Shown in pieces: positions 11,069 through 30,079 of a stretch of 32,480 bases of DNA. Under the pieces are notes generated by a model, which saw only the letters and a program-made list of their open reading frames with translations, ran no database searches and was not told the DNA's origin. The stretch comes from Gemmatimonadaceae bacterium (GTDB taxonomy: Bacteria > Gemmatimonadota > Gemmatimonadetes > Gemmatimonadales > Gemmatimonadaceae): assembly GCA_025930755.1 (NCBI GenBank), contig JAICOJ010000030.1, forward strand, positions 1-32,480, written 5' to 3'. The stretch's first letter is position 1. Each line of letters starts with the position of its first letter. Position numbers and translations under genes: made by a program.

Positions 11069-12687
11069 TGGCGATCAAGGGGAGTCTCCGCGAAGCCAGC
11101 CTTCCGGACGTGCTTCAGCTGCTCGCGATGGGGCAGAAGACGGGATGCCTGAGCGTGGCCGATCGAAGCAGCTTCGGCACCGTGTACTTCTCGCGCGGAC
11201 GCATTTCGTACGCGTCGATCGTGAATCGTCGCGATCGCCTCGGTGACATCCTCGTCAAGAACGGGCTCATCACCCAGCAGGAGCTCGACTCGGCGATTCA
11301 GGCGCAGACGCGGCAGCGCGACAAGCGACTCGGGGAGATCCTCATCGAGCAGAAGATCCTCACGCGCGAGGAGCTGCACCGGTACATCCGGCTGCAGATC
11401 GAAGAGGCGGTGTATTTCCTCTTCACCTGGACGCAGGGCACGTTCAGCTTCGAGGCGGACGTGCTGCCTGACGAGCGTGACTTTCTGGTCTCGATCAACC
11501 CGGAGTCGCTGCTCCTCGAGGGCGCGCGGCGCGTCGACGAGTGGAGCCTCATCGAGAAGAAGATTCCGAGCTTCGACATCATCTTCGAGCTCGATCGCAC
11601 CAAGCTCGCCGGCAGCGATGCCGAGCTCACGATGGAGCAGGAGCAGCTCGTTCCGCTCGTCGATGGGCGGCGCGACGTCGCCGCCCTCGTCGATGAGTCG
11701 GGCCTCGGCGAGTTCGAGGTGGGCAAGGCCTTGTACGGCCTCGCGACCGCTGGCTTCCTGCATCGCATCGGGAAGTCGAAGGCTTCGGACGCCGTGGTGC
11801 GCGAGGCGCGGGTCGAGGAGCACCGCAACCTGGGCATCGCGTTCTACAAGACGGGCATGTACGAGGAAGCGACGCGGGAGTTCCGCCGCGTCGCCGAGCT
11901 CCGCCCGAACGACGGGCAGGCACTCTTCTTCATGGCGCTCGTCCACCTGCGTAACGAGCGGCTGCCGCAGGCCGAGGAGTCGTTGCGGGAGGCGGCGAGC
12001 CAGCCGAACGCCCCGGCGGCGGTCTTCCACAATCTCGCTTTCGTACTGGAGCGCACGGGTCGCCTCGACGACGCGCAGATCGCGCTCGAGGAAGCGGTCA
12101 CTCGGGGAGGCGGCTCGGACCCGCGGGTGCAGATTGCGCTCGGCATCGTGGCCCTGCGGCGCGGCCAGCTCGACGCCGGCGACGCCCTGCTCGCGGCGGC
12201 GCGCCCGTTGTTCGGCAAGCGCAAACCAACGGCGCCCTGGTTCCACTACGCCGCGTTGGCCGCGGCCCTCGGCGGCGACTTCGGTCGCGCGGCCGCGCTG
12301 GTCGACGAGGCGCTTACGGTGCACCCGCACGTCGCCGCGCTGCACAACCTCAAGGCGACGTTGCTGGAGCGTGCGGGCAAGTATCGTCAGGCGATCGAGG
12401 CGGCGGAAGCCGGGCTTGGCAATGACAGCTCGCTGCCCCACCTGCACAAGAACCTCGGTGACTGCCACTATCGCGCCGGGCAGTACGATCGCGCCCTTGA
12501 GGCATACGAGCGGGCCGCACGGCTCGCTCCGGGCCAGGGGCACGACGTGTGGTTCAAGATGGGCAACATTCGGTATCGCACGCACGAGCGGGAAGCGGCA
12601 CTCGAGTGCTGGGAGAAGGCGCTCGAGCTCGATCCCGAGAACGCGCTCATCCGCACGAATCTCGACCTCGTCCGGACGGTGATGTGA
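11068..12687 (+). CDS. PATAN (DUF4388)-TPR protein, copy 2
   Basis: A 539-residue paralogue of the protein at 5689-6834. It shares the opening (MAIKGSLREASLPDVLQLL), KTGCLSV, GTVYFSRGRISYASI, the RLGDILVKNGLITQQELD helical segment and the SLLLEGARRVDEWS stretch around residues 150-165. The C-terminal 285 residues are TPR units (for example HRNLGIAFYKTGMYEEATRE and LHKNLGDCHYRAGQYDRALE), more than in copy 1. It is cytoplasmic with no membrane segment. The ATG shares one base with the stop of the AAA+ gene. Copies 1 and 2 probably arose by duplication around the Roadblock-GTPase-AAA+ block, and could give two sets of protein contacts to one complex. Confidence 0.88.
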   Translation: MAIKGSLREASLPDVLQLLAMGQKTGCLSVADRSSFGTVYFSRGRISYASIVNRRDRLGDILVKNGLITQQELDSAIQAQTRQRDKRLGEILIEQKILTREELHRYIRLQIEEAVYFLFTWTQGTFSFEADVLPDERDFLVSINPESLLLEGARRVDEWSLIEKKIPSFDIIFELDRTKLAGSDAELTMEQEQLVPLVDGRRDVAALVDESGLGEFEVGKALYGLATAGFLHRIGKSKASDAVVREARVEEHRNLGIAFYKTGMYEEATREFRRVAELRPNDGQALFFMALVHLRNERLPQAEESLREAASQPNAPAAVFHNLAFVLERTGRLDDAQIALEEAVTRGGGSDPRVQIALGIVALRRGQLDAGDALLAAARPLFGKRKPTAPWFHYAALAAALGGDFGRAAALVDEALTVHPHVAALHNLKATLLERAGKYRQAIEAAEAGLGNDSSLPHLHKNLGDCHYRAGQYDRALEAYERAARLAPGQGHDVWFKMGNIRYRTHEREAALECWEKALELDPENALIRTNLDLVRTVM

Positions 12688-13508
12688 GCGTCCAGCAGCA
12701 GCCCGCCGACGCGGAGTTCGCCGCGCTCACCGAGAAGATCTCGCGGGAGCGCGGCTTCGGCTGCGCGAGCTACAAGGAAAAGTGTCTGCGGCGCCGCATC
12801 GCGGTGCGGATGCGCGCTCGCGGCGTGCACACGTATCGCGACTACGCGAAGATCCTCGATGGCGATGCGCGAGAGTACGAGCTGCTGCTCGACGCGCTGA
12901 CGATCAACGTCACCAAGCTCTTTCGAAACTGGGAGACGTTCGCCGCCATCGCCGACGACGTGATTCCCGCGCTCTGGCCGGCGCCCGATGAACACGTGCG
13001 GTGCTGGAGCGCCGGGTGCGCGTCGGGAGAGGAGCCGTACTCGATCGCGATCCTCATGCACCGCGAAGCGATGCAGCGCAAGGATGAGAAGGCGCTCTCT
13101 CGTATCACCATCCTCGGGACCGACATCGACCGGCTGAGTCTCAAGGCGGCGGAGCGAGGCGCCTTCGGCGAGGATGCGTTCGCCGACACCCCGCCGGCCA
13201 TTCGGCGTCGCTACTTCACGCCGAGGCCACCGCACTCGGTGGATCCCCGGGTGAAGGCGATGGTGCAATTCGAGCGACGTGATCTGCTGCACGAGCCGAC
13301 CCCGTCGGGCGGGCTCGATCTCATCACCTGTCGCAACGTCATCATTTACTTCGACCGCGTCTCGCAGGAGCTGCTCTTCCAGCGGTTCTTCGACGCGCTC
13401 GTTCCGGGCGGATTCCTCGTGCTCGGCAAGGTGGAGACGCTCCTCGGTCCCACCCGGAACCTGTTCGTGCCGGTCAATCCGCGCGAACGCGTCTTCCGCA
13501 AGCCATGA
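12684..13508 (+). CDS. cheR: Chemoreceptor glutamate methyltransferase CheR
   Basis: A 274-residue SAM-dependent O-methyltransferase that methylates receptor glutamates. The N-terminal helical domain contains YKEKCLRRRIAVRMRARG and LTINVTKLFRN, in place of the usual TxFFR. The SAM-binding motif is CWSAGCASGEEPYSIA (107-122); GTDIDRLSLKAAERGAF and DLITCRNVIIYFD complete the fold. I place the start at GTG 12684, which overlaps the preceding TGA (GTGA). The ATG at 12549 would add 45 residues that merely shadow the upstream TPR gene. There is no TPR tail, unlike some CheR. The next gene overlaps by ATGA. Presence of cheR and cheB implies an adapting receptor encoded elsewhere. Confidence 0.95.
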   Translation: MSVQQQPADAEFAALTEKISRERGFGCASYKEKCLRRRIAVRMRARGVHTYRDYAKILDGDAREYELLLDALTINVTKLFRNWETFAAIADDVIPALWPAPDEHVRCWSAGCASGEEPYSIAILMHREAMQRKDEKALSRITILGTDIDRLSLKAAERGAFGEDAFADTPPAIRRRYFTPRPPHSVDPRVKAMVQFERRDLLHEPTPSGGLDLITCRNVIIYFDRVSQELLFQRFFDALVPGGFLVLGKVETLLGPTRNLFVPVNPRERVFRKP

Positions 13509-13996
13509 GCGCGCCGACCGAGATTCGCGTGAAGGTCGCCGACTTCGCGGTGGCGAACGGGGGCACGCTCCTCGTCACGGTCGGCCTGGGGTCATGCGTG
13601 GCGATCGCCCTCCACGATCCGGACGCGCGCATCGGCGGGCTCGCGCACGTGCTGCTGCCGAGCACCGGCATGTCGCAGGACCGGTCCAATCGCGCCAAGT
13701 TTCCGTCGACGGCGGTACCGCTTCTCTGCGAGCGCATGCAGGCGTTAGGTGCGCGTCCGGGCCGACTGCGCGCGAAGATCGTCGGTGGCGCAAGCATGTT
13801 TACCTCGCTTCTTTCGGCGACTGGTCTCCAGATCGGGGAGCGCAACGTCGTCGCGACGCGTGCCGCGCTCGAGCACGCGGGCATTCCGATCGTCGGGCAG
13901 GAAGTTGGCGGCGACTACGGCCGCAGCGTGTACTTCGACGTGCGGGATGGTCGTCTCACCGTGAAGTCGCTGAAGGCCGGGCATGTCATCCTCTAG
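13505..13996 (+). CDS. cheD: Chemoreceptor glutamine deamidase CheD
   Basis: A 163-residue CheD, which deamidates receptor glutamines and in Bacillus and Thermotoga binds and stimulates CheC. Catalytic residues are in the expected spacing: Thr25 and Cys31 in VTVGLGSCVAIAL and His48 in GGLAHVLLPS. The region FPSTAVPLL matches the conserved substrate-site stretch, and KIVGGASMF is typical of the family. It overlaps cheR by ATGA and cheB by 14 bases. Together with cheC in the same operon it supports the three-branch (methylation, deamidation, CheC/CheD) adaptation scheme. Identity is firm. Confidence 0.95.
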   Translation: MSAPTEIRVKVADFAVANGGTLLVTVGLGSCVAIALHDPDARIGGLAHVLLPSTGMSQDRSNRAKFPSTAVPLLCERMQALGARPGRLRAKIVGGASMFTSLLSATGLQIGERNVVATRAALEHAGIPIVGQEVGGDYGRSVYFDVRDGRLTVKSLKAGHVIL

Positions 13997-15065
13997 GCTG
14001 CCCACCGTCCTCGTCGTGGACGACAGCGCATTCATGCGCAAGCTCGTCTCGGAGATGATCGATGCCTCCGGGGAGTTCCGCGTGATTGGCACGGCGCGCA
14101 ACGGCCTCGAAGCGCTGAAGAAGATCCATGCCCTGGATCCCGATCTGGTGACGCTGGACATCGAGATGCCTGAGCTCGATGGCATCGGAGCGCTCGGATA
14201 CATCATGAGCGAGATGCCGCGGCCCGTCATCATGCTGAGCGGCGCGGCATCGGAGTCTGGGCGCGATCCGGCGATTCGCGCCCTCGAGCTCGGGGCGGTG
14301 GACTTCGTCAAGAAACCGGGCGGACCGATCTCACTGGATCTCGATCGTGTCCGCGACCGGTTGCTCGACGCGCTCCGCGCTTCCCGTGAAGTGAACCTGC
14401 GCGGGATGCCCATGCTGGCACGGCGGCCCGAGCCGGCGATGGCTGGACGCGCGATCGCCGGCGGCGGCTCGTGGGCGACGCGCGCCGTGGCGATCGCCGC
14501 GTCCACCGGGGGGCCGCGCGCACTGGCCGACCTCATTCCCGCGCTTCGCCCCGACCTCGATGCGGCCGTGCTCATCGTGCAGCACATGCCGGCGGGCTTT
14601 ACCAAGAGCCTGGCCGACCGGCTCGACCTTCACTCGCGCCTCAGCGTGGCCGAGGCATGCGATGGCGAGCGCGTCGTGCACAACCGGGTGTATCTCGCCC
14701 CGGGTGGACAGCACATGCGCGTGCGCGTGCAGGGCGGCATGCCGGTAATCTCGCTCGACAGCTCGCCCCCGGTCTGGGGAGTTCGCCCCTCGGCGGATCC
14801 ATTGTTCAAGTCCGTCGCCGACGTGTTCGGCGCGGCGGCGATTGGCGTCGTGCTCACGGGGATGGGCCGCGATGGCGCGGAAGGGATGCGCGCCATTCAC
14901 GAAGCGGGCGGCCTCGGGGTCGCTCAGGACAAGGCGACGTCGATCATCTATGGAATGCCGCACGCAGCGCTCCTGGCTGGAGGCATCGACCAGGTGCTAC
15001 CACTTCAGGCCATTGCCGGTGCGGTGAGCGATTTGTTGACCGTCCGGGGAAGCGGGGTAATGTGA
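13983..15065 (+). CDS. cheB: Chemotaxis protein-glutamate methylesterase CheB
   Basis: A 360-residue two-domain CheB. The receiver, about 5-125, has Asp59 as phospho-acceptor in LVTLDIEMPELDG. A linker precedes the methylesterase domain, about 165-350, with Ser174 in IAASTGG, His201 in VQHMPAGF and Asp297 in TGMGRDGAEGM as the catalytic triad. The length and layout are normal for the family. The ATG at 13983 lies inside the cheD 3' end. CheA~P would activate it to remove methyl groups (or deamidate) on receptors, opposing CheR. Confidence 0.96.
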   Translation: MSSSRLPTVLVVDDSAFMRKLVSEMIDASGEFRVIGTARNGLEALKKIHALDPDLVTLDIEMPELDGIGALGYIMSEMPRPVIMLSGAASESGRDPAIRALELGAVDFVKKPGGPISLDLDRVRDRLLDALRASREVNLRGMPMLARRPEPAMAGRAIAGGGSWATRAVAIAASTGGPRALADLIPALRPDLDAAVLIVQHMPAGFTKSLADRLDLHSRLSVAEACDGERVVHNRVYLAPGGQHMRVRVQGGMPVISLDSSPPVWGVRPSADPLFKSVADVFGAAAIGVVLTGMGRDGAEGMRAIHEAGGLGVAQDKATSIIYGMPHAALLAGGIDQVLPLQAIAGAVSDLLTVRGSGVM

Positions 15066-15166
15066 CGCGCGCTCTTCGTGAACTGTCCGTTCAGACAGAG
15101 GCGCTAGAGGCGCTGGACGTAACCTCTGTGGGGCTCGTCGAGCTCCAATTGAGTACCCAACGATGA
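15062..15166 (+). CDS. Possible 34-codon coupling ORF between cheB and cheW
   Basis: A GTG-initiated frame of 34 codons fills the cheB-cheW gap exactly. Its GTG overlaps the cheB stop as GTGA, and its TGA overlaps the cheW ATG as ATGA, the same junctions used between real genes of this operon. It would encode a short peptide starting VTRALRELSVQTEALEAL with no recognisable domain. Its EALEALD part is encoded by an inverted copy of the 9-base unit that also fills the cheW linker, so it may be a by-product of a repeat. It could serve mainly to carry ribosomes to cheW. Evidence is only the geometry of the overlaps. Confidence 0.4.
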   Translation: MTRALRELSVQTEALEALDVTSVGLVELQLSTQR

Positions 15167-15350
15167 CGAGGAAGAAGAAGCCGGCTCGATCGCAGGCCTC
15201 ACGCCGCGCGCCTCGCAAGCGGGGCGCGACGGCTGCGCGCACGAGTGAGGTCCCGGTGTCAGCGCCCACCGCGCCTTCAGCGCTTTCAGCGCCTCCAGCG
15301 CCTCCAGCGCCTCCAGCGCCTCCAGCGCCTCCAGCGCCTTCAGCAGCTCC
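15097..15350. repeat. 9-base unit array in cheW with an inverted partial copy upstream
   Basis: About five to six tandem units of GCGCCTCCA (with TTCA variants) occupy roughly 15280-15350 and encode Ala-Pro-Pro repeats. At 15097-15117 the reverse complement of about two units is present (GAGGCGCTAGAGGCGCTGGA). The facing copies bracket the cheW start region, the same arrangement seen at three other places in the window though with a longer loop. Confidence 0.6.
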
Positions 15351-15855
15351 TCTGCAACTCGAGGAGCCGGCCGGCCCTCCGCGACGTCCACTGCGCGAAG
15401 CGATCGCCGCGCGTGAGGGGCTGTCGGACACGCTGGTCTTCCGCATCGGCGAGGAGCGGTTCGCGATCGACCTCGCGGCCGTGGAGGAGGCCATCGAGCT
15501 CCCCTCGGTTCACCATCTCCCCGAAATGCCCGACCACCTGTTAGGCGTGTTCGAGCTGCGCCAGCGCCTCGTTCCGATCTACTCGCCCGAGCGCGTGCTC
15601 CGCGTCGCCCTCGGACGCGATGCCTCGGCGGTGCTCGTCCTGCGCGCCAGCGAGAAGCGCCTGGGCCTCGCCGTCGACGACGTCGAGGACGTCCTCACGA
15701 TCGATGGCGCCGCGGTTCGACGCGCACCCATTCCCGACAACGATGACAACGTGCTCCTCGGGGTCATTCGTCGCGGTGTCGATCTTCTCGCCCTCATCGA
15801 CGCCGAGTCGCTGGCGCTCGCGTGTCTGGCGGATCAGCTCACGGAGGCAGTATGA
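15163..15855 (+). CDS. cheW: CheW coupling protein with basic, Ala/Pro-rich N-terminal tail
   Basis: A 230-residue protein. The CheW fold occupies about residues 88-225 (TLVFRIGEERFAIDLAAVEEAIE; LGVFELRQRLVPIYSPERVL; LGLAVDDVEDVLTI), linking CheA to receptors. It is preceded by an unusual 85-residue tail. Residues 1-28 have 11 Lys/Arg and no acid (starting MTRKKKPARSQASRRAPRKR), followed by an Ala-Pro-Pro linker encoded by the 9-base array. Normal CheW has about 150 residues and no such tail. A histone-like basic tail could bind DNA, as reported for the N-terminal tail of the Frz receptor FrzCD in Myxococcus; this is analogy only. It overlaps the next cheW by ATGA. Confidence 0.9.
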   Translation: MTRKKKPARSQASRRAPRKRGATAARTSEVPVSAPTAPSALSAPPAPPAPPAPPAPPAPSAAPLQLEEPAGPPRRPLREAIAAREGLSDTLVFRIGEERFAIDLAAVEEAIELPSVHHLPEMPDHLLGVFELRQRLVPIYSPERVLRVALGRDASAVLVLRASEKRLGLAVDDVEDVLTIDGAAVRRAPIPDNDDNVLLGVIRRGVDLLALIDAESLALACLADQLTEAV

Positions 15856-16331
15856 CCGCGGTCGCACAGCAGCTCGTCACCTTCCGGCTCGGCGATGACT
15901 TGTTCGCCGCCGACATCTACTCGGTGGAGCGCGTGCTCCGCTACCAGCCGCCCACGCCGATCCCGAACGTGCCGGACTGGGTGGACGGCGTCATCGAATA
16001 TCGCGGACGCATCATTCCCGTCATCGATCTGCGTCTTCGATTCGGCCTCGCGCGGATCGAGCCGCGGCCGGAGTCGCGCATTCTCGTTTTCGCGGTGGGG
16101 AACGAGTGGATTGGCGCCATCGTCGACGCGGTGCTGGAAGTCGCGAGCCCGACGTCGGAGCAGCTGGCGCCGCCGCCCCCGCTCTTTCGCGGACTGTCCG
16201 CGGAGTTTCTGCGCGGCGTGGTGCGCCGCGACGACCGCCTCATCGTGTTCCTGGAAGTGACCAAGCTGCTCACGACCGACGAGCGGCTGGTGCTCGAGCG
16301 CGCCGCGGATGGAGCGACGCACGATGCCTGA
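15852..16331 (+). CDS. cheW: CheW coupling protein, second copy
   Basis: A 159-residue CheW of usual size: QLVTFRLGDDLFAADIYSVERVLRY, then WVDGVIEYRGRIIPVIDLRLRFGL, an ILVFAVGNEWIGAIVDAVLEV strand pair, and a C-terminal FLRGVVRRDDRLIVFLEVTKLL. I use ATG 15852, overlapping the previous stop as ATGA; the in-frame ATG at 15822 would add ten residues (SGGSAHGG) that shadow the upstream gene. It lacks the basic tail of its neighbour, so the operon provides one plain and one tailed adaptor for CheA. The following TPR gene overlaps by 8 bases. Confidence 0.94.
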   Translation: MTAVAQQLVTFRLGDDLFAADIYSVERVLRYQPPTPIPNVPDWVDGVIEYRGRIIPVIDLRLRFGLARIEPRPESRILVFAVGNEWIGAIVDAVLEVASPTSEQLAPPPPLFRGLSAEFLRGVVRRDDRLIVFLEVTKLLTTDERLVLERAADGATHDA

Positions 16332-17223
16332 CGGCGGGGCTGGTGATCTGCGGTCCCGCTTTGCGGCGATCGACGCTCGCCTCGATGCCTCAGCGACTCC
16401 CGCCGAGCGGGAGGCGCTGAAGGGCGACATCGTCTCGCTGTTCAAGCAGGTGGAAGCGCAGATCGCCGAGCTCTCGGCGCTCAAGGAGGACGTGAAACGT
16501 CTCGTCGAAAAGTGGAAGACGGCGCACGCGGCGGCGGCGCCGGTGAGCGCCACCTCGACCTCACCGGGGGCCGCGCCGCAGTTCGCTCCCGAGCGTCCCA
16601 AGCCGATGGCCGACCACCTCGGTGCGTCGACCTTCATCGAAAAGGGGTGGAGTCTCATCTCGCTCGGCGAATACGACGGCGCCGAGAAGGCGCTGACGCG
16701 CGCCCTGCAGCTCGCGCCCGATGATCCGCAGTCGGAATCGCTGCTCGGGTGGGCGCAGATGCTCCAGGAGAAATACGACGACGCGCTGATGAATTTCCAG
16801 AAGGTCCTGATGCGCGAGCCGGCCAATGCGCTGGCGCGCATCAACGTCGGCTACATCTGCCTCAAGAAGCGCATCTTCGGCGAAGCGATCGAGCACCTGT
16901 CGAAAGCCATCCGCCTCGACAATGACCGGAAGGCGACGCTCTACGCGCACTTTTACCTCGGCCTGGTGTATCTGGAGCGCGAGATGTACGAAGATGCGCA
17001 GACGTTCTTCAAGAAGACGCTGCAAATCGGCCCGAATCTCATTGAAGCGTACTTCGAGCTCGGCCGCTCGCTCTGGTTCGATGGGCAGAAGGAGGAAGCG
17101 ATGGAAGCGTGGCGGAACGGGCATCGCACGAACAAGTTCAATCCATGGGGCAAGCGCTGCGGAGAGATGCTGAAGCACGTCGAGGGTGGAGGCTCGCTCT
17201 CGCGGTCGCGCGCGATGGCCTGA
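16324..17223 (+). CDS. TPR protein with N-terminal coiled coil
   Basis: A 299-residue cytoplasmic protein. Residues about 25-65 form a predicted amphipathic helix or coiled coil (LKGDIVSLFKQVEAQIAELS), then an Ala/Pro/Ser linker, then five or so TPR units from about 100 to 270 (LGASTFIEKGWSLISLGEYD, YAHFYLGLVYLEREMYEDAQ). The start at ATG 16324 is preferred over ATG 16309 because GGAG at 16311-16314 is 9 bases upstream. It is the last clearly cytoplasmic member of the chemosensory run and may bind the CheW/CheA complex. The peptidase gene begins inside its 3' end. Confidence 0.88.
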   Translation: MPDGGAGDLRSRFAAIDARLDASATPAEREALKGDIVSLFKQVEAQIAELSALKEDVKRLVEKWKTAHAAAAPVSATSTSPGAAPQFAPERPKPMADHLGASTFIEKGWSLISLGEYDGAEKALTRALQLAPDDPQSESLLGWAQMLQEKYDDALMNFQKVLMREPANALARINVGYICLKKRIFGEAIEHLSKAIRLDNDRKATLYAHFYLGLVYLEREMYEDAQTFFKKTLQIGPNLIEAYFELGRSLWFDGQKEEAMEAWRNGHRTNKFNPWGKRCGEMLKHVEGGGSLSRSRAMA

Positions 17224-18206
17224 TCGCGGCCGTATTCCTCACCTCATCGCTGCTCGCGCAGCCCAACGCGCCGCACCGTCTGGTCCGGGACCGGTTCACG
17301 GTCCTCGGATTTCCCAGTGACAATCAGCTCATGCGCTCCCTGCTCGACGCGGCGGCGGAGCGTGACAGTTTTCCCTGGCTCCCGCGCCCTCGCGCTCGCG
17401 TCGTCATCGCGGTGGCGCCTGACGAGCGGCGCTTTCGCGAGTGGATCGGTCCGGCGGCCCCCGAGTGGGGGGCGGCGATCGCGTTCCCCGCGCAGCGCAC
17501 GATCATCATGCAGGGGCGCACCGCCGGGTCCGACGCCGGCGATCCGCTGGTGGTGCTGCGCCACGAGCTGGCGCACCTCGCGCTCGACGAGGCGTTAGGC
17601 GGCCTTCCGCCTCGCTGGTTTCATGAGGGATACGCGAGTGTGGCCGCCGGCGAGTGGGGCCGGGAGGAGGTCCTCGCCACGAGTGTCGCGCTCCTCGTGC
17701 GTGGCATGCCCACGCTCGATTCCCTCGACGCCACCTTCGGCGCCGGCGCCTCGCGGGCCGACGCGGCGTACGCCCTCGCGCACCGCGCCGTCGCGGAGCT
17801 CGCGGCGCTGGATCCGGAGCGCGGGCTCACGCTCTTCTTTCAATACTGGCGCGAGACGCGCTCGCTGGAGGTGTCGATTCGTCGCGCGTTCGGCGTGACG
17901 CAGGCCCAGTTCGAGGAGCGGTGGCGACAGCGCACGCGGCGTCAGTACGGCGCCCTCGCCATCGTTGCTGATCTCTCGCTCGCCGCCGCGATCCTCATGG
18001 TCGTCGTAGTGCCGCTCTACATGGCGCGTCGCCGCCGCGATCGCCGCCGTCTCGAGGCGATGCGAGCCGCCGATGCCGCCGCGGAGCGTGCGGCGAGAGA
18101 GAGTGCGCTGGCGGCGCTGCTTGGAGAGGGTCCTCAGGGTCCTCAGGGTCCTCAAGGTCCCCAAGGTCCTCACAATTCGAGCGACGATGATGCTCGCGCA
18201 CTCTGA
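17145..18206 (+). CDS. Membrane-anchored HEXXH metallopeptidase (peptidase MA-like)
   Basis: About 353 residues. An arginine-rich start and a hydrophobic stretch (GLIAAVFLTSSLLAQPNAP, about 25-43) look like a signal peptide. The catalytic motif is HELAH (140-144) with Glu161 in WFHEGYASV as the third zinc ligand, typical of gluzincins of the peptidase MA-like group. A transmembrane helix spans about 270-293 (LAIVADLSLAAAILMVVVVP), followed by RRRRDRRR and a cytoplasmic tail ending in Gly-Pro-Gln repeats. The protease domain would face the periplasm. The start is uncertain: GTG 17109 or ATG 17145 both lie well inside the preceding gene, and no standard start occurs from there until 17331, which would delete the signal. 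Substrate unknown. Confidence 0.8.
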   Translation: MGQALRRDAEARRGWRLALAVARDGLIAAVFLTSSLLAQPNAPHRLVRDRFTVLGFPSDNQLMRSLLDAAAERDSFPWLPRPRARVVIAVAPDERRFREWIGPAAPEWGAAIAFPAQRTIIMQGRTAGSDAGDPLVVLRHELAHLALDEALGGLPPRWFHEGYASVAAGEWGREEVLATSVALLVRGMPTLDSLDATFGAGASRADAAYALAHRAVAELAALDPERGLTLFFQYWRETRSLEVSIRRAFGVTQAQFEERWRQRTRRQYGALAIVADLSLAAAILMVVVVPLYMARRRRDRRRLEAMRAADAAAERAARESALAALLGEGPQGPQGPQGPQGPHNSSDDDARAL

Positions 18207-18247
18207 GGACATCGAGGACCCTGAGGACCCTGAAGACCCTGAAGACC
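18128..18247. repeat. Long inverted repeat of 9-base units at the operon end
   Basis: The left arm (18128-18171) contains five units of GGTCCTCAG and encodes the Gly-Pro-Gln tail of the peptidase. The right arm (18204-18247) matches its reverse complement at 38 of 44 positions and contains the gene's TGA stop. The 32-base loop lies between. The stem could form in the mRNA and protect or end the long transcript, but there is no proper T tract after it. Confidence 0.85.
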
Positions 18248-18259
18248 TAAGTAACTTTC

Positions 18260-18288
18260 TTGACACCCTTTAGGAGCCCGGGTACACT
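18260..18288 (+). promoter_or_regulatory. Near-consensus sigma-70 promoter
   Basis: TTGACA (18260-18265) and TACACT (18283-18288) are separated by exactly 17 bases. Transcription would start near 18295-18297, right at the ATG of the small membrane-protein gene (18297). It could also supply the tRNA-Val 240 bases downstream. This is a sequence prediction only. Confidence 0.65.
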
Positions 18289-18296
18289 AAACCCCT

Positions 18297-18467
18297 ATGC
18301 CCAATTCGGAAACGCGGCCGCGAAGGCGCGCGGCACTATGGTGGGGTGCCGCGCTTCTCGCGCTTGGCATCGGGTACGCGGATCTCGCCCGCGGAGGAAT
18401 AACTCTGGCACCCGTGATGCTTGTGCTCGGGTATTGCGTACTCGTTCCCCTGGCGATTCTGAAATAA
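18297..18467 (+). CDS. Small two-helix membrane protein (56 aa)
   Basis: A 56-residue protein not recognised by name. It begins MPNSETRPRRR, then has a hydrophobic segment at about 12-29 (ALWWGAALLALGIGYADLA), a short ARGG turn and a second at about 34-55 (TLAPVMLVLGYCVLVPLAIL), ending in Lys. The basic N-terminus predicts both ends in the cytoplasm, a helical hairpin. A strong promoter ends 8 bases before the ATG and no ribosome-binding site lies at a usable distance (TAGGAG is about 20 bases away), so the mRNA may be leaderless. It sits alone between the signalling operon and tRNA-Val. The composition is clearly protein-like, but the function is unknown. Confidence 0.68.
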   Translation: MPNSETRPRRRAALWWGAALLALGIGYADLARGGITLAPVMLVLGYCVLVPLAILK

Positions 18468-18492: not shown

Positions 18493-18510
18493 GGCGGGCT
18501 CGAGCCCGCC
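18493..18510. terminator. Perfect GC palindrome after the small membrane-protein gene
   Basis: GGCGGGCTCGAGCCCGCC is an 18-base perfect palindrome 26 bases after the small gene's stop and 22 before tRNA-Val. It can fold into a tight hairpin. No T run follows, so termination is possible but unproven; it could instead be a processing or regulatory site. Confidence 0.35.
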
Positions 18511-18605: not shown

Positions 18606-18679
18606 TGCCCGCGGGTCGTCCGCGGACCCTCGTGCGGCAAACCGTGTAGTAGAGAGCTAACGTATTGGAGGTTATGACC

Positions 18680-20392
18680 GTGAAGCCATTGGTTCGTGGG
18701 GCGACGACTTTGATCGGCATCGTCGCGGCGCTTGGCGCGACCGAGGTGTCGACGCTCGAGGCGCAGCGCCGTCCGGTAGCGCCTCCGCCCGATGCCCCTC
18801 GTTTTCCCGTGTTACCGCTCAAGTCCGCGGACAAGAAGGTCGGCGTTCAGGCGGCCGACGCCATCCGCGCGCGCTTGTCGTCGGCGTATCGCATCCGCGA
18901 TATGTACGTCATTCCGCGAGCCGATGTCGAGGCGATTCTTCAGGGCTCCGGGTTCCCGCCCGACGAAGCGCCCGATCCGATCACCGCGCGCCTGCTCGCC
19001 GCACAGCTTCGCGGGGACGAGTACCTCGAAGGCAGCGTCACGCGCACGCCAGCCGGCTATCGGCTGGACACGCGTCTGGTCCTCACGCGCGACAACTCAA
19101 TGGTGCAGCCGCTTCCGGCCGCCGAGGCTCCGAAGGTCGAGGACGCCGCACGGGCAGTGGTTGCGTCGATCCAGGAAGCGCGCAAGCAGCTCGACGATGT
19201 ACGTGCATGCGAGAACGCCATGCGCGAGAACAACGTCGCCGGCGCTCTCACCGCGGCCCGCACCGCGATTGCCGAGTTTCCACAGGCGACCTTGGCCCGC
19301 GTCTGCATGGCGCGTGCGCTGACGGTGCAGAAGGCGCCGCCCGATTCGATCATTCCCGTGCTCGAAGCCGTCCTCGCCGTCGACTCGATGAGCCGGCCGG
19401 CGCTGGAGCAGCTCGGTCTCGCCTACAAGGCGGCCAATCAGGTCGACAAGTCGGTGCAGACGTGGGGCCGACTCATTCGGTACTACCCGAACGATCCGAA
19501 GCTCGTGTCGGAGGTCGTGAACGAGATCGCCGCCAGCGGTCGTCCCGAGATCGCGAGGCCGATCATCGAGCAGGCGGTGGAGCAGAACCCCGGTGATCCC
19601 GCGCTCACGCGTCTCCTCTTCCTCATCCAGCTGGCGTCGAAGGATTGGAAGGGTGCTGCGAAGACCGGCGAGGATCTCGTTCGCGTGGACACCGCGTCCG
19701 CCGATACGACCTTCTTCGTCCGCCTCGCGGTCGCGTACGACTCGGACAGTCAGCCGCAGAAGGCGGCGGAGACGCTCGCGCGCGGCGTGGCCAAGTTCCC
19801 CAACAACGCGGGACTCTGGTCGACCTACAGCCAGATGCTGCGCAGCTCCGGCCAGTTGCAGCAGGCGCTGACGGCGATCGACCGCGCCATCAGCATCGAC
19901 CCGAAGGTGGAGCACGGCTGGTTCCGGCGGGCGCAGGTGCTCGTGGAGCTCGGTCAGACCGACAGCGCCTTCGCGTCGGCGAAGCGCGCGGTGGAGTCCG
20001 GGGAAGACAAGAACCTCGTCGGCCAGCTGATGCTCGTCGAGGCGAACAAGAAGTTCCGCGCCGCGCGCGCCTCGCAGCAGCGCACGGACTATCAGGAAGC
20101 GGTGCGCCTCCTGTCGCAGGCTGACTCGATCGCGCCGAATCCGACGATCAGCTTCCTGCTCGGGGCCTCGGCGTTCAGCGTCGGCGATCAGGCCGCGCGC
20201 GAGAACCAGAAGGCGAAGAGCTGCGAGCTCGCACAGCTCGCGGAGGACTCCTTCACGACGGCGATGATCCATCTGCCGAAGGGAGCGCAGGTGCAGGCGG
20301 AGGCGTCGACGCAGCTGCTCAACGCGATTCCGCAGTACACGCGCGCGGTCGAAGGACAGAAGAAGAATTATTGCAAGGGCAGCCGCGGGTAG
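18680..20392 (+). CDS. Exported TPR protein with TolB/FlgO-like N-terminal domain
   Basis: About 570 residues. It opens with a signal peptide (MKPLVRGATTLIGIVAALG..., likely cleaved after an Ala near LEAQ). A domain of roughly 110 residues follows (RFPVLPLKSADKKVGVQAAD; DMYVIPRADVEAIL; DEYLEGSVTRTPAGYRLDTR), reminiscent of TolB-N/FlgO-type periplasmic folds, then a long set of TPR units up to about residue 540. The start was chosen at GTG 18680 because GGAGG (18667-18671) lies 8 bases before it; ATG 18674 is only 2 bases from that site and TTG 18665 overlaps it. The gene ends at a strong terminator. Likely periplasmic; partner unknown. Confidence 0.83.
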   Translation: MKPLVRGATTLIGIVAALGATEVSTLEAQRRPVAPPPDAPRFPVLPLKSADKKVGVQAADAIRARLSSAYRIRDMYVIPRADVEAILQGSGFPPDEAPDPITARLLAAQLRGDEYLEGSVTRTPAGYRLDTRLVLTRDNSMVQPLPAAEAPKVEDAARAVVASIQEARKQLDDVRACENAMRENNVAGALTAARTAIAEFPQATLARVCMARALTVQKAPPDSIIPVLEAVLAVDSMSRPALEQLGLAYKAANQVDKSVQTWGRLIRYYPNDPKLVSEVVNEIAASGRPEIARPIIEQAVEQNPGDPALTRLLFLIQLASKDWKGAAKTGEDLVRVDTASADTTFFVRLAVAYDSDSQPQKAAETLARGVAKFPNNAGLWSTYSQMLRSSGQLQQALTAIDRAISIDPKVEHGWFRRAQVLVELGQTDSAFASAKRAVESGEDKNLVGQLMLVEANKKFRAARASQQRTDYQEAVRLLSQADSIAPNPTISFLLGASAFSVGDQAARENQKAKSCELAQLAEDSFTTAMIHLPKGAQVQAEASTQLLNAIPQYTRAVEGQKKNYCKGSRG

Positions 20393-21430: not shown

Positions 21431-21460
21431 TTGACCACGCGCTCCATGCGCCGCTAGAAT
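21431..21460 (+). promoter_or_regulatory. Predicted sigma-70 promoter for the dcw cluster
   Basis: TTGACC (21431-21436) and TAGAAT (21455-21460) are spaced by 18 bases. The -10 overlaps the first possible rsmH start (ATG 21459), so a transcript from here would begin near 21467, close to an in-frame TTG at 21468. It lies in the 97-base divergent gap between yegS and rsmH. Confidence 0.45.
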
Positions 21461-22409
21461 GACCGCGTTGCGAACGAACGAGTCGCGGTGGGCGAGCGCA
21501 TACCACGCGCCGGTTCTCGCCACGGAGGTCGCCGACCTCCTGCGTGGATGTGCGCACGTGCTCGACGGAACGCTTGGCGGAGGTGGACACGCGCTGTTGC
21601 TGCTCGAGCAAGGCGCGCGCGTCACCGCGCTCGATCGGGATCCGGAGGCGATCGCCGCGGCGCGGGCCCGTTTGCACGAGTATCAAGAGTCCTCCCGCTT
21701 TCGCGCTCTCCTCGGCAACTACGCCGACCTCGACGCAGTCCCTGAGCTCGGCTCCGCTCGCTTCGACGGCATTCTGCTCGACCTTGGCGTCTCCTCGCAT
21801 CAACTCGATGATCCGCGCCGCGGCTTCTCGTTTCGGGAAGGCGCCCCCCTCGACATGCGCATGGGCGACGATGCACCGCTCACCGCTGCCGATTGGCTCA
21901 ACGCGACCCCCGAGCTGGAGCTGCTGCGCGTCTTTCGTGAATACGGGGACGAGCGCCGGGCGGCGCGGCTCGCGCGCGAGGTGGTGCGCCGGCGCGCGAC
22001 CCGTCCCTTCGTCATCAGTGATGACCTCGTGGGGGCCATTCGCGGCGCGCTGGGACCCCGCTCCGGCCCGCCGGATTTCGCCCGCCTCTTTCAGGCCGTG
22101 CGCATCGAGATCAACGACGAGCTGGGGGGGTTGGCGTACGCGCTTCCCGCGTTGCGCGATCGCCTTGAGCCGGGCGGAATCATGGCCGTGATCGCCTACC
22201 ACTCGGGGGAGGATCGCATCGTGAAGGGCGCGTTCCGCGACTGGAGCACCGACTGTGTTTGCCCGCCCCGGCAGCCCATGTGCACCTGTCGAGGGCGCGC
22301 CCTGGGAGCGCTGGTGACCCGGCGGTCGATCACGGCCACGCCCGCCGAGGTCGCGGCAAACCCCCGGGCGAGATCGGCGAGACTGCGCGCATGGCGAAGC
22401 GCAGAGTAG
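21459..22409 (+). CDS. rsmH: 16S rRNA (cytosine-1402-N4)-methyltransferase RsmH
   Basis: A 316-residue RsmH (MraW), which methylates C1402 of 16S rRNA and is a standard first or second gene of dcw clusters. Signature parts: AYHAPVLATEVADLL, the SAM loop DGTLGGGGHALLLL, DGILLDLGVSSHQLDDPRRGFSF followed by APLDMRMG, EINDELGGL, and AYHSGEDRIVKGAF (usually FHSLEDRIVK, so Leu is Gly here). ATG 21459 overlaps a predicted -10 box; TTG 21468 would still leave the conserved HAPVL region intact, so the true start may be three codons later. No mraZ precedes it. ftsL overlaps its end by 19 bases. Confidence 0.94.
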   Translation: MTALRTNESRWASAYHAPVLATEVADLLRGCAHVLDGTLGGGGHALLLLEQGARVTALDRDPEAIAAARARLHEYQESSRFRALLGNYADLDAVPELGSARFDGILLDLGVSSHQLDDPRRGFSFREGAPLDMRMGDDAPLTAADWLNATPELELLRVFREYGDERRAARLAREVVRRRATRPFVISDDLVGAIRGALGPRSGPPDFARLFQAVRIEINDELGGLAYALPALRDRLEPGGIMAVIAYHSGEDRIVKGAFRDWSTDCVCPPRQPMCTCRGRALGALVTRRSITATPAEVAANPRARSARLRAWRSAE

Positions 22410-22696
22410 CGCTCCGCGGCCGCTCGCTGGTCGCGCTCGGGCTCCTCGGTTTCGTTCTGATCGCCACAGGCGTCATCTGGCGTAGGGCCGCGGGGATCTC
22501 GCAGGCGGCGGACCTGCGTGCACTCGAGCAGCAGGCCGTCCAGCTCGAGGCGCAGCAGGCACGACTCGAGAACGAGATCCGCGAGGCCTCGAGCCGTTCG
22601 ACGCTTGCACCTGTCGCCGAGCGGAGGCTCGGGATGCGAGTCCCGAGTGATACGCAGGTCGTGATCCTTCCGCGCTCCCCCCGCTCCGGCACGTAG
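22391..22696 (+). CDS. ftsL: Cell division protein FtsL-like
   Basis: A 101-residue bitopic protein: a basic N-terminus (MAKRRVALRGR), one transmembrane helix at about 12-30 (SLVALGLLGFVLIATGVIW), then a charged heptad-type helix (LRALEQQAVQLEAQQARLEN) in the periplasm, ending with LGMRVPSDTQVVIL, a typical FtsL C-terminal stretch. FtsL pairs with FtsB/DivIC and helps activate FtsW-FtsI. Sequence alone is poorly conserved in this family, but size, topology and position between rsmH and ftsI make the call strong. The start at 22391 lies within the rsmH end; the upstream extension of the frame is shadow. ftsI follows with no gap. Confidence 0.88.
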   Translation: MAKRRVALRGRSLVALGLLGFVLIATGVIWRRAAGISQAADLRALEQQAVQLEAQQARLENEIREASSRSTLAPVAERRLGMRVPSDTQVVILPRSPRSGT

Positions 22697-24676
22697 ATGC
22701 CCCGCCTCACTCGCTCGCAGGTCGTTCAGGGCGCGCTCGGCGCGTTCGCCGCGCTGCTCGTCATCCGCGCCGCGCAGGTTCAGCTCTGGGAAGGACGCGC
22801 CTGGGCCGCGCGCGCCCACAAGCAGCACTACGGCGCGAAAGCGATCCCCGCGCCTCGCGGCGCACTCCTCGATGCCCGCGGCGTTCCCCTCGCGCAGAGT
22901 CGCGAGCTGGTCAAGCTCTCCATTGCGCCGCAGGAAGTGCGCGACCGCCGCCTCCTCGGCAAATCACTCCGCAAGCTCGGCGTGCCCCCGGTGTGGATCG
23001 CCCGCGCGACCGACGCCAAGCGCAAATGGGTCGTGCTGCCGGGACGCTACCTCCCGGTGGACGCCTCGGACGTGACCGCCATGCGCGGCGTGTACACCGA
23101 GGTCGCGATCGACCGGGTCTACGCGCACGGGGAAGCGATGCGTCGCGTCGTGGGGCGCGTCGGTGCCGACGATCAGCCGATCGACGGGCTCGAGCTCGCG
23201 CTCGACTCCTTGCTGCGCGGTCAGGAAGGCACGCTGCTCGTCGCGCGCGATGCTCGCGGGCGACGCGCGAGCTCGTCCGGCGAGTCGGGACGCGCGCCCG
23301 TGGAGGGGCACCAGGTCGTGTTGACGCTGAGCCGCGAGCTTCAGGACATCGCCGAGCGCGCCCTCCGCGATGCGGTGCACCGCATGGGCGCGGCGGGTGG
23401 TGACGTCGTCATTCTCGACCCCCACACCGGAGAGCTGCGGGCGCTCGCGAGTCATCGCACCGACGGCTCGTTCTCCGGCGTGCCCGCACTGAGTGTACCC
23501 TTCGAGCCCGGCTCGACGCTCAAGCCGTTCTTCGCGGCGGCACTCCTCGCGACCGGCCGGGCCACGCCTGACGAGCGCATCGACACGGAAAACGGGGTCT
23601 ACACCCTCGAGGGCCGCACGATCACCGACGTCCACGCCGAAGCGTCGATGACACTCACGGACGTGATCCGATACTCGAGCAACATCGGCATCGCGAAGTT
23701 CACGTCTCGCCTTGCGCCGCGCGAGCAGTACGAGGTGCTGCGCGATCTCGGATTCGGGACACCGACCGGCGTCCCGTTCCCCTCCGAGGCCGGCGGGACG
23801 TTGATGATGCCTGACGAGTGGACACGGATGTCACCCGCCTCGCTCGCGATGGGATACGAGATCGCGGTCACCCCGGTCCAGCTGGCCACCGCGTACGCGG
23901 CCATCGCGAATGGCGGCGAGCTGCTCGAGCCGACGATCGTACGGGAGATTCGCGATCCTGACGGCGGCATTCGCTTCCGCCACGAGCGGCGCGTCGTCCG
24001 GCGCGTGATGAGCGCGGAGATTGCCGGGACGATCCGCAGCATGCTCGTCGGCGCGGTCGAGGAAGGAACGGGCGGCGGGGCCGGACTCGGCAGCTTCTCG
24101 GTGGCGGGCAAGACCGGCACCGCACGCGTGGCGCGCGGCGGCCGGTACGCCGCGAGCGAGTATACGGCGTCGTTCGTCGGCTTCTTCCCGGCCGATGAGC
24201 CACAGTACGTGGTGCTGGTCAAGATCGACCGGCCCACCGGGGCGTACTATGGCGGCCAGACCGCTGCGCCGGTGACGCGCGCCGTGCTCGAGGCCGCGAT
24301 CGCTGCCCGCGACGCCGCGCTCGATCGACGCGCGCTCGCGTCCCGAGAGTCGCTGGAAGCGCTCGCCAGGGCAGGCCCGCATGCGGAGGACCTTGGCGAG
24401 GCTGCCCGCGTGGTCGAAGAGCAGATCCCGCGACACGTCGTCGACCTGCCGCTTGCACGCACCGCTCGCGCGGGTGCGCTCCGGGCAGAGGGGAAGTCGC
24501 CCCGCGCCGTGCCTAACGTCCGCGGGATGCAGCTTCGCGAAGCGGTCCGGACGCTGCATCGCGCGGGCTTTCGCGTGCAGCTGGGCGCCGCGACGGGCGC
24601 GGCATCCGCGACGTGGCCCAATGCCGGCGCCATGCTTCGTGAGGGGTCGCTCGTCAGGCTCGTGAGCGATCGGTGA
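22697..24676 (+). CDS. ftsI: Division transpeptidase FtsI (PBP3-type) with PASTA domain
   Basis: A 659-residue class B penicillin-binding protein that crosslinks septal peptidoglycan. There is an N-terminal membrane anchor (about 8-30), a PBP dimer domain (IPAPRGALLDARGVPLAQS at about 50), and a transpeptidase domain with catalytic Ser273 in PGSTLKPF, SSN at 327-329 and KTG at 472-474. A C-terminal extension, about 505-595, leads to one PASTA-like module (VPNVRGMQLREAVRTLHRAG, about 602-655). PASTA domains occur in Gram-positive PBP2x and some other phyla and bind muropeptide or other wall parts; they are absent from E. coli FtsI. It starts immediately after the ftsL stop. Confidence 0.94.
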   Translation: MPRLTRSQVVQGALGAFAALLVIRAAQVQLWEGRAWAARAHKQHYGAKAIPAPRGALLDARGVPLAQSRELVKLSIAPQEVRDRRLLGKSLRKLGVPPVWIARATDAKRKWVVLPGRYLPVDASDVTAMRGVYTEVAIDRVYAHGEAMRRVVGRVGADDQPIDGLELALDSLLRGQEGTLLVARDARGRRASSSGESGRAPVEGHQVVLTLSRELQDIAERALRDAVHRMGAAGGDVVILDPHTGELRALASHRTDGSFSGVPALSVPFEPGSTLKPFFAAALLATGRATPDERIDTENGVYTLEGRTITDVHAEASMTLTDVIRYSSNIGIAKFTSRLAPREQYEVLRDLGFGTPTGVPFPSEAGGTLMMPDEWTRMSPASLAMGYEIAVTPVQLATAYAAIANGGELLEPTIVREIRDPDGGIRFRHERRVVRRVMSAEIAGTIRSMLVGAVEEGTGGGAGLGSFSVAGKTGTARVARGGRYAASEYTASFVGFFPADEPQYVVLVKIDRPTGAYYGGQTAAPVTRAVLEAAIAARDAALDRRALASRESLEALARAGPHAEDLGEAARVVEEQIPRHVVDLPLARTARAGALRAEGKSPRAVPNVRGMQLREAVRTLHRAGFRVQLGAATGAASATWPNAGAMLREGSLVRLVSDR

Positions 24677-26190
24677 TGTCGGTTGCCGGCGCCGAGGGCG
24701 TCGAGGCCACGGCGCTCGCCCCAATCGTCGAGGCGCTGCGGCGCGCCGAGCTGCTACTGTCCGTCGAAGGCACTCTGCCGCCCACTGTGACGGACATCGT
24801 CGACGACTCGCGCACCGTGCGCCCCGGCGCGCTGTTCGTGGCCGTGCGCGGCACGGAGCGCGATGGACACGACTATCTCGCGCACGCGCAGCAGCGCGGC
24901 GCCACCGCCGCCGTGGTCGAGGACGCGGCCCGCGCACCACTCCCGGCGATCGTGGTCCGCGACGGGCGTCGCGCCGCGGCATTCGCCGCCGCCGCCTTTT
25001 TCGGCGACCCCTCGAGCCGCATTCGTGCGATTGCCGTGACGGGTACGAACGGAAAGACGACGACCGTCGGAATGCTCCGCCACCTCCTCGACGAGCCGGG
25101 TGCCCCGAGCGCATCGATCGGAACCATCGGCGTGCTGGTCGGCAGCGCTGGCGTTCCGCTCGAAGGGGGGGCGGGGCTCACAACGCCCGGACCCATCGAG
25201 CTGCAGCGGGTTCTGCGGACACTCAGCGGCCGGGGGGTGCGCACCGTCGCCATGGAGGTGTCGTCCCATTCCCTGGAGCAGCGCCGCATCGAAGGCATGC
25301 GCTTCGAGACCGCGGTCTTCACCAACCTGACGCGCGATCATCTCGACTATCATGGGACCATGGAGCTGTACTTCGACGCCAAGGCGCGCCTCATCTCACA
25401 CCTGTCGGCGAACGGCGTCGCGGTCGTGAATGCCGACGATGTTGCGTGGACCGCGTTGCCAGCCGCGCCGCGCCGCCTGCGCTTCGGCTCGCGAGGTCAG
25501 GGCGCCGAAGTCTGGGCGGATGACGTGCGGTACACGCCCCGCGGGAGCGCGTGGACGCTCGTCGTCGAGCCGTCGAAGGTGACTGGCCGCACCGCTCAGC
25601 GCGCGCAGGTCACGCTGCCGTTGATCGGGGACTTCAACGTCATGAATGCCCTCGGCGCGGCGGCAGCGGCTATCGCGACGGGCCTGTCGGTGGATGAAGT
25701 GGCGCGGCGCCTCGCCACGCTCCCACAGGTTCCCGGCCGGTTGGAGATCGTCCTCGAGCATCCAACCGTGCTGCGCGACTACGCGCACACGCCGGATGCG
25801 CTCGAGCGCGCCTTGCACGCCGTGCGGCCGTTCGTGCAGGGTCGGCTCACCGTGGTCTTCGGGTGCGGCGGCGATCGGGATCGCGGCAAGCGACCCGTCA
25901 TGGGCGGAATCGCCGAGCGTCTGGCGGATCTCGTGATCCTCACCAGTGACAACCCGCGCACGGAGGACCCGGAAAGCATTCTCGACGAAATCGAGACCGG
26001 AATGCAGAAAAGGCACGAGCGCATCGAGGATCGCCGCGAGGCGATTGCGCGCGCGCTCGCGAGCGCATCACCGAAGGACGTGATCCTGTTGGCGGGGAAG
26101 GGGCACGAAACGTATCAGATTCGCGGGACGGCTCGCTTGCCGTTCGATGAGCGCGAGATCGTGCGCGAGCTCGCCGGATCGCCGACGTGA
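24676..26190 (+). CDS. murE: UDP-MurNAc-tripeptide ligase MurE (meso-DAP type)
   Basis: About 504 residues. It adds the third amino acid to UDP-MurNAc-L-Ala-D-Glu. The ATP loop is VTGTNGKTTTVG; TTPGPIELQRVL, EVSSHSLEQRRI and TNLTRDHLDYHGTMELYFDAKARL (with the lysine that is carbamylated in the family) are present. The specificity motif is DNPR (SDNPRTEDPESI), which marks meso-diaminopimelate rather than lysine; AGKGHETYQ is near the end. Two starts are possible: GTG 24673 (GTGA overlap with ftsI) and ATG 24676 (one-base overlap); they differ by one residue. murF overlaps by GTGA. Confidence 0.95.
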   Translation: MSVAGAEGVEATALAPIVEALRRAELLLSVEGTLPPTVTDIVDDSRTVRPGALFVAVRGTERDGHDYLAHAQQRGATAAVVEDAARAPLPAIVVRDGRRAAAFAAAAFFGDPSSRIRAIAVTGTNGKTTTVGMLRHLLDEPGAPSASIGTIGVLVGSAGVPLEGGAGLTTPGPIELQRVLRTLSGRGVRTVAMEVSSHSLEQRRIEGMRFETAVFTNLTRDHLDYHGTMELYFDAKARLISHLSANGVAVVNADDVAWTALPAAPRRLRFGSRGQGAEVWADDVRYTPRGSAWTLVVEPSKVTGRTAQRAQVTLPLIGDFNVMNALGAAAAAIATGLSVDEVARRLATLPQVPGRLEIVLEHPTVLRDYAHTPDALERALHAVRPFVQGRLTVVFGCGGDRDRGKRPVMGGIAERLADLVILTSDNPRTEDPESILDEIETGMQKRHERIEDRREAIARALASASPKDVILLAGKGHETYQIRGTARLPFDEREIVRELAGSPT

Positions 26191-27566
26191 CCGCGTCGTT
26201 CTGGACGCTCGACCGCGTCGCCGCCGCCATGGCGGACGCGTTTCCCGCCCAGCACGCGCGGACCCAGTGGCCCCGCGGCGCGACGACGCTCCGTGGCGTG
26301 TCGACCGACACGCGAAACATCACGGCGGGCGATCTGTTCGTCGCCCTCGCCGGCGAGCGCTTCGACGCGCATGATTTTCTCTCCGAGGCGGTCGCGAAAG
26401 GTGCATCAGCGCTCGTCGTCTCGCGGCCGGAGCGGACTGGCGGGCTCGGTGTCCCGATCTTCGCGGTTCCCGATACCACGGTGGCGCTCGGCGCTCTCGC
26501 CCGCTTTCGACGGCGCGCATGGGGGAAGCCGCTCGCGGCGATCACGGGCACCAACGGCAAGACGAGCACGAAGGATCTCACCCGGGCCGCGCTCGGTGCC
26601 GCGCTGGACGTGCACGCGACGACCGGGAACCTGAACAACCGCATCGGCGTCCCGCTCACGCTGCTCGCGCTGCGCGATGAGGCAGACATCGCCGTCTGTG
26701 AGATGGGGATGAGCATCCCAGGCGAGATCGCCGCACTGCGCGCGATCGCCGAGCCGGACATCGCCGTCGTGACGTCGGTGGCCGAGGGTCATCTCGAGGG
26801 GCTGGGGAGCGTCGAGGGCGTGATGCGGGAAAAGGTCTCGATCTTCGACGGTGTGGGGGTCGGGGTCGTCCCCGCCGCGCAGCCCGAGATCGCCGCAGCG
26901 GCGAAAGGCCGCGCGCGCCGGCTGGTCGTCGCGGGTCTCGAGTCCGGCGATCTTCACGCCGACGAGTGGACCGTCGAGGAGGATGGTCTCGGTCGCCTCA
27001 CCGTACGGGGCGTCACGGTTCGGCCCCCTCTTCGTGGTTTCCACAACCTCCGCAATACCATGCTCGCGCTCGCCGTCGCGCAGGAGTGCGGTGTGTCGCT
27101 CGAGCAGGCTGCTGAGGGTATCGCCGCGATGCCGGTTCCGTCGATGCGTCTCGCCTGGGAGAAGCTCGGCAGCGCGACATTGATCAACGACGCGTACAAC
27201 GCCAATCCCGGATCGATGCGCGCCGCACTCGAGCTGCTGGATTCAGTCGGGGGCGGCCGCCAACGGGTCGCGGTGCTGGGAGGAATGCGCGAGCTGGGCG
27301 CCCACGCCGACCGGCTGCACGCGGAGATTGCCGATCGGGCCCTTCAGTCGTCCATCGAAGTCGTGGCCGGCGTGGGGGAGATGGGCGACGCGTTGCGTCG
27401 CGCGGGACGGGACGATGCGCGGGTGGTGGCCGCGCCGGACATCGAGGAGCTGTGGCAGTCGCTGGCGCCACGACTCTCACGCGATGCGGTGATCCTCCTC
27501 AAGGCGTCGCGGGGCGTGCGGCTCGAACGACTCGTCCCTCATCTCACGGCCTGGGCCAACGGCTAG
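26187..27566 (+). CDS. murF: UDP-MurNAc-tripeptide-D-Ala-D-Ala ligase MurF
   Basis: A 459-residue Mur ligase that adds D-Ala-D-Ala. Features: GVSTDTRNITAGDLFVALAG in the N-terminal domain, ATP loop ITGTNGKTSTKDL, NLNNRIGVPLTLL and EMGMSIPGEIAAL (both MurF signatures), NPGSMRAALELL, and VLGGMRELGAHADRLH in the C-terminal domain. The start is GTG 26187, overlapping the murE stop; an ATG start would be far inside. mraY begins on the last base of its TAG. Identity is firm. Confidence 0.95.
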   Translation: MTASFWTLDRVAAAMADAFPAQHARTQWPRGATTLRGVSTDTRNITAGDLFVALAGERFDAHDFLSEAVAKGASALVVSRPERTGGLGVPIFAVPDTTVALGALARFRRRAWGKPLAAITGTNGKTSTKDLTRAALGAALDVHATTGNLNNRIGVPLTLLALRDEADIAVCEMGMSIPGEIAALRAIAEPDIAVVTSVAEGHLEGLGSVEGVMREKVSIFDGVGVGVVPAAQPEIAAAAKGRARRLVVAGLESGDLHADEWTVEEDGLGRLTVRGVTVRPPLRGFHNLRNTMLALAVAQECGVSLEQAAEGIAAMPVPSMRLAWEKLGSATLINDAYNANPGSMRAALELLDSVGGGRQRVAVLGGMRELGAHADRLHAEIADRALQSSIEVVAGVGEMGDALRRAGRDDARVVAAPDIEELWQSLAPRLSRDAVILLKASRGVRLERLVPHLTAWANG

Positions 27567-30078: not shown

Positions 30079-30079
30079 A

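Follow-up and report, generated by a model that had tools for sequence, protein, structure and literature searches.

A short gene for a 56-aa membrane hairpin protein is present in the window (the whole 32,480-nt stretch of a Gemmatimonadaceae contig analysed here), close behind a sigma70-type promoter and ahead of the gene for tRNA-Val(UAC), and comparison across relatives establishes the gene, its conserved promoter geometry and its linkage to the tRNA. From this arrangement we infer the site of the transcript start, the co-transcription of the ORF with the tRNA and their separation by RNase P. As a whole, we consider it probable that the sigma70-type promoter drives a leaderless mRNA/tRNA-Val transcript from which RNase P would release the tRNA. 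The features of the locus are as follows:

17109..18206, + strand: Peptidase_MA_2 protein with a C-terminal membrane segment, a separate gene upstream (similar protein in 106 of 156 loci)
18260..18265, + strand: -35 element TTGACA (TTGAC conserved at the same place in relatives)
18283..18288, + strand: -10 element TACACT (TANNNT conserved in relatives)
18297, + strand: A of the ATG, where transcription is predicted to start (anywhere from 18295 to 18297 being possible), judging from the -10 spacing and the pyrimidines before the ATG
18297..18467, + strand: 56-aa membrane hairpin protein, DUF3098-like (homologues, dN/dS, AlphaFold2)
18493..18510, + strand: palindrome GGCGGGCTCGAGCCCGCC in the gap between ORF and tRNA, missing from this gap in the genus mate L005
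18532..18605, + strand: tRNA-Val(TAC), presumed to be the second product of the ORF transcript (beside the ORF on the same strand in 125 of 156 loci)
18665..20392, + strand: TPR protein, a separate gene downstream (similar protein in 87 of 156 loci)

On one side the gene is flanked by a chemotaxis-type cluster (window 11068-16328: DUF4388, CheR, CheD, CheB and two CheW proteins), on the other by a cell-wall/division cluster (window 21459-31267: RsmH, a penicillin-binding protein and FtsW/RodA).

Conservation of the short gene

Judged by its conservation, the short ORF, whose stop codon is at 18465-18467, is a real gene. In a search of 99 genomes, strong matches (E<=4.3e-14) were found in 54 of 58 same-family relatives, the exceptions G009, G039, G051 and G057 having a weak match only, and 39 of 40 same-order relatives were matched at E<=1.8e-4, with G084 lacking a match. 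A profile retrieved 138 of 149 genomes of the class and 118 of 121 phylum-wide, including all six of the sister class f11; part of these matches are to a paralogue, and the profile misses distant members, so that absences at the class level are not proof. Sixteen of the 56 positions are invariant in 28 aligned family proteins, and the median dN/dS is 0.18 (246 usable of 300 pairs), the nearest pair having a dN of 0.034 and a dS of 0.57. A chance ORF was rejected on the matches in relatives and the dN/dS value, and the conservation and low dN/dS together place the frame under purifying selection at the protein level. The earlier note had set a lack of conservation of the frame as one result that would count against it; the frame proved to be under such selection phylum-wide.

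Promoter geometry and predicted transcription start

In the window, TTGACA and TACACT are separated by a 17-nt spacer and match the consensus hexamers at 10 of 12 positions (4 of 6 for the -10 element alone), and 8 nt (AAACCCCT) lie between TACACT and the ATG at 18297. This was the only sigma70-like site in 3.2 kb (shuffled sequences would give 0.2), and the same 3.2 kb yielded no terminator-like site or T-run terminator. Going by the promoter spacing, the ORF would have a leader of 0-2 nt. An AGGAG at about 18273 was considered as a ribosome-binding site and rejected: it sits within the promoter spacer, so it cannot serve as one on a transcript from this promoter.

We gathered 156 distinct loci by protein similarity, eight of them (L034-L041) deliberately included paralogue loci, and defined a strict pattern consisting of TTGAC, 16-18 nt, TANNNT, 5-11 nt and the ORF start codon. 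The pattern was found at the ORF start in 111 of the 156 loci (97 of 125 with tRNA-Val and 14 of 31 without), a count which, like the other locus counts given here, is inflated by relatedness among the genomes. Over all 29,802 start-like triplets of the same loci the geometry occurs 118 times, only seven of these beyond the 111, and it is therefore more than chance. Among named Gemmatimonadota-like loci, 61 of 71 have the promoter geometry. The spacer is 17 nt in 100 of the 111 strict loci, and the gap from the -10 element to the start is 8 or 9 nt in 74.

As expected of leaderless mRNAs, which begin with AUG or GUG and lack a Shine-Dalgarno (SD) motif, the start codons of the strict loci are ATG (103) or GTG (8) and never TTG, and an SD-like tetramer precedes the start in only three of the 111. 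A pyrimidine occupies position -1 in 83% and position -2 in 85%, the start base is A in 93%, and, of the 108 loci whose gap is at least 6 nt, 58 are free of purines from the sixth base after the -10 element up to the start; pyrimidines before the start, together with A at the start, favour initiation at that A itself. The earlier note had described a TTGACA-17 bp-TACACT promoter ahead of a 56-codon ORF without a usable ribosome-binding site, and both points are borne out in the window. Its leaderless reading is supported by the conserved spacing, the absence of SD motifs and the Y-Y-ATG context.

Twenty-eight of the 125 tRNA-Val loci fail the strict pattern, and some of these keep a degenerate form at the same place (a degenerate -10 or -35 box in L024, L025, L066 and L099); other failures of the pattern are the paralogues and L050 and L077, which have no clear promoter. 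We would like to note that the match counted at L092 is probably spurious: its TTGACT-TAAATT promoter recurs in three loci of that class (L093, L095 and L096), where a leader follows it. Leaders are visible at the sister-class loci L093-L096.

Within the window's genome, the leaderless pattern with full TTGACA was found at 7 sites compared to 0 in a reversed control, and the TTGAC form at 16 sites compared to 1. The six other full-TTGACA sites (L177-L182) head ORFs of 73-380 codons. Given these further sites of leaderless type, leaderless genes seem to be in wider use in the window's organism. Some of the ORFs of L177-L182 look by eye like MarR-, TetR- and MerR-like regulators.

Linkage to tRNA-Val

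A search for the protein beside tRNA-Val in related genomes, which the earlier note had proposed as a check, gave a positive result. The tRNA-Val(TAC) gene adjoins the short gene in all 30 of the first loci. Of the 156 loci, 125 have tRNA-Val(UAC) downstream on the same strand, as do 73 of 80 named loci; the latter are not an independent set, since most are these genomes again, listed under their public names (Gemmatimonadaceae and Gemmatimonadetes MAGs). The tRNA is missing from 31 of 156 loci, or from 23 of 148 when the paralogue loci are set aside. A Peptidase_MA-like neighbour is found upstream in 11 of these 31, which indicates that they hold the same gene and that the tRNA was lost or moved. 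In the window's genome, one Val(UAC) tRNA was seen, the other Val tRNAs being CAC and GAC, among the best-matching places only.

The distance from the stop codon to the tRNA ranges from -10 to 195 nt across the 125 loci, with a median of 32, and does not exceed 25 nt in 55 of them. Where the distance is -10 (L101, L159, L162 and L165), the TAG stop codon is formed by nucleotides 8-10 of the tRNA-Val. At about 3137-3195 of L248, the ORF continues into a tRNA-Val without its 5' half, probably through a metagenome assembly fault. Unusual RNA structure of the ORF-tRNA transcript was considered and rejected (z -0.63).

The two genes are adjacent on the same strand and no second promoter is evident between them, the arrangement that characterizes dicistronic mRNA-tRNA transcripts, and we infer that one sigma70-type promoter very probably serves both the ORF and tRNA-Val, giving two products.

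Alternative explanations

The tRNA could instead have a weak or unusual promoter of its own within the ORF or the gap, the two genes then being neighbours rather than parts of one transcript. Gaps of up to 195 nt in some loci would leave room for such a promoter, and our promoter test covered the sigma70 type only. However, 93 loci combine the strict promoter with a tRNA that does not overlap the ORF, and one of them has a further strict promoter between the ATG and the tRNA; the best internal promoter score averaged 6.83, not above the 7.02 of shuffled sequences and compared to 8.99 for the leaderless promoter. As 55 of the 125 gaps are also no longer than 25 nt, we regard a separate tRNA promoter as unlikely. 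A promoter serving the single-copy tRNA-Val, with the ORF an accidental or hardly translated leader, would agree with the tRNA being the shared neighbour and the sole Val(UAC) gene seen, and with the lack of an SD motif at the ORF. This is very improbable in view of the selection acting on the protein, with its 16 invariant residues, and of the 14 tRNA-less loci that keep both promoter and ORF.

It is likewise improbable, to about the same degree as a separate tRNA promoter, that a longer transcript, such as one reading through from the Peptidase_MA gene, is the main message for the ORF, which would then be translated independently of SD motifs without being leaderless. A Peptidase_MA-like gene does lie upstream in 106 of 156 loci, 91 bp away in the window, and no terminator with a T run was found, but the promoter stands at a fixed spacing from the ATG in 111 of 156 loci and a strong hairpin (z -7.1) separates the Peptidase_MA gene from the ORF in the window. 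This hairpin (18127-18248) is formed by a run of a 9-nt repeat (AGGGTCCTC) and its inverted copy, with 51-nt arms, and sits at the end of the Peptidase_MA gene, where the protein tail reads GPQGPQGPQ. A similar hairpin (z -5.2), formed from a different repeat, occurs in the genus mate L005, and folding of nine other loci yielded no strong hairpin (z 0.69 to -1.14). Being present in the window and L005 and not in these nine, the strong hairpin is therefore a genus-level feature at most.

The protein and its paralogue

Two clear hydrophobic helices had been described in the earlier note; the second is indeed strong (mean KD 2.48, residues 37-55), while the first is weaker. AlphaFold2 places helices at residues 8-31 and 38-55 with low confidence (pLDDT 65). 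To judge from the two helices, the arginine-rich N-terminus and the lysine at the C-terminus, both ends of the protein would be in the cytoplasm.

The same note had called the product unknown. This holds in that Pfam, NCBIfam and PHROGs give no family match above cut-off for the window protein and solved structures no useful match (best E 0.72), but the note missed a broad family distantly like DUF3098 (PF11297, Pfam cut-off 25 bits). No match of the window protein itself to DUF3098 is listed at E<=1. Among diverse homologues, 22 of 44 match DUF3098 at E<=0.1, and the distant homologues L078, L252, L253 and L254 score 25.7, 25.6, 25.1 and 25.0 bits, with most others below the cut-off. By sequence, the window protein is thus DUF3098-like and is not filed as DUF3098. 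SecG is also a two-helix membrane protein, and when the window protein was compared with Pfam and NCBIfam at E<=1, no SecG family came up.

By Pfam, L034 and L038 encode TMEM260-like (PF11028) proteins whose N-terminal part is a paralogous hairpin, and the same layout was seen by eye in L035, L036 and L037. In L040 (Pfam) and L039 (by eye), the hairpin is a separate ORF just before a TMEM260-like protein, and no TMEM260-like neighbour was found at the L041 locus. The Zixibacteria loci L297 and L300 carry the same fusion of hairpin and TMEM260-like protein (Pfam). Going by these sequences, the role of a small partner of a membrane enzyme would fit. The fusion of the paralogue to TMEM260-like transferases also suggests a scaffold role for the window protein, which is the weakest step of our reading and one that we consider rather unlikely.

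Occurrence beyond Gemmatimonadota

A scan of named genomes also retrieved matches in Zixibacteria, one Fermentibacteria genome and one TA06 genome. Among these matches, a tRNA-Val(TAC) gene is present at L253, L254, L260, L261 and L262, followed by tRNA-Asp in four of them, and is not present at L251, L252, L255 and L256. Of 80 genomes sampled from the phylum to which L253 belongs, 68 have the protein. We read 34 loci in this phylum, six of them from genomes already named, and the first downstream feature was tRNA-Val in 18 and tRNA-Asp in two. A TTGAC promoter is often visible in this phylum, with a leader estimated by eye at about 20-30 nt. Given these leadered loci, leaderlessness looks like a Gemmatimonadetes trait added to an older operon, a presumed direction of change. 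The leadered relatives in the sister class and Zixibacteria would allow the origin of leaderlessness to be traced.

Proposed mechanism and implications

In the leaderless reading that we favour, the housekeeping (sigma70-type) promoter would start the transcript at the ATG or at most 2 bases away, and ribosomes would load straight onto the 5' AUG of the message. The same transcript would continue into tRNA-Val(UAC), and an RNase P cut at the 5' end of the tRNA would both free the tRNA and define the 3' end of a minimal mRNA. The loci that lack the tRNA or fail the strict pattern, and the leaders in the sister class and Zixibacteria, speak against this reading. The protein would most likely reside in the inner membrane with both ends cytoplasmic, paired, as the small partner, with some other membrane protein.

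More tentatively, and with slightly more doubt than belief, we propose that a microprotein of the DUF3098 kind became tied to tRNA-Val(UAC) before several phyla split, that the Gemmatimonadetes message is nearly without untranslated ends (the promoter setting the 5' AUG and RNase P the 3' end), and that a stop codon within the tRNA couples membrane-protein output to tRNA-Val supply. In the four genomes in which U8-A9-G10 of the tRNA doubles as the stop codon, a given RNA molecule would yield either a properly ended protein message or a tRNA, not both. The locus would be a clean system for studying competition between mRNA translation and tRNA maturation on one transcript. It also provides a case of probable leaderless translation that has been tested by evolution across a phylum, and points to a conserved, unstudied membrane protein.

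Comparison with known systems

Our literature search found no account of this ORF/tRNA-Val operon, subscription papers being mostly beyond its reach, and nothing on Gemmatimonas start sites or, as a topic, on mRNA-tRNA co-transcription; DUF3098 was found as a table row in one paper. Precedents, as far as the available portions of the sources go, exist for each element: leaderless small genes, mRNAs running into tRNAs, and secG leuU. Similar to the window protein, DUF3098 proteins are small two-helix proteins, and the window protein differs in itself lacking a match to the profile. The TMEM260-like transferases of Gemmatimonadota and Zixibacteria have the paralogous hairpin as an N-terminal extension outside the Pfam region, whereas the window protein has no transferase domain.

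Leaderless small-protein genes are described for mycobacteria in the accessible part of PMC4633059. Similar to those, the gene described here has a 5' end that would fall at the start codon and a short product of a kind often left unannotated; unlike what that part describes, the geometry here is conserved across another phylum, and a tRNA is linked to the gene. In Salmonella, per the available text of PMC3879156, the yifK mRNA runs into argX-hisR-leuT-proM, and these tRNAs have a strong promoter of their own. For E. coli, an mRNA-tRNA transcript of secG leuU is named in a title among the references of PMC3985628. In both, going by these partial sources, a membrane-protein message continues into a downstream tRNA, as is proposed here. 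Unlike yifK as described there, no separate tRNA promoter is evident at our locus, and unlike both yifK and secG leuU, the mRNA here would be leaderless and its stop codon may fall inside the tRNA.
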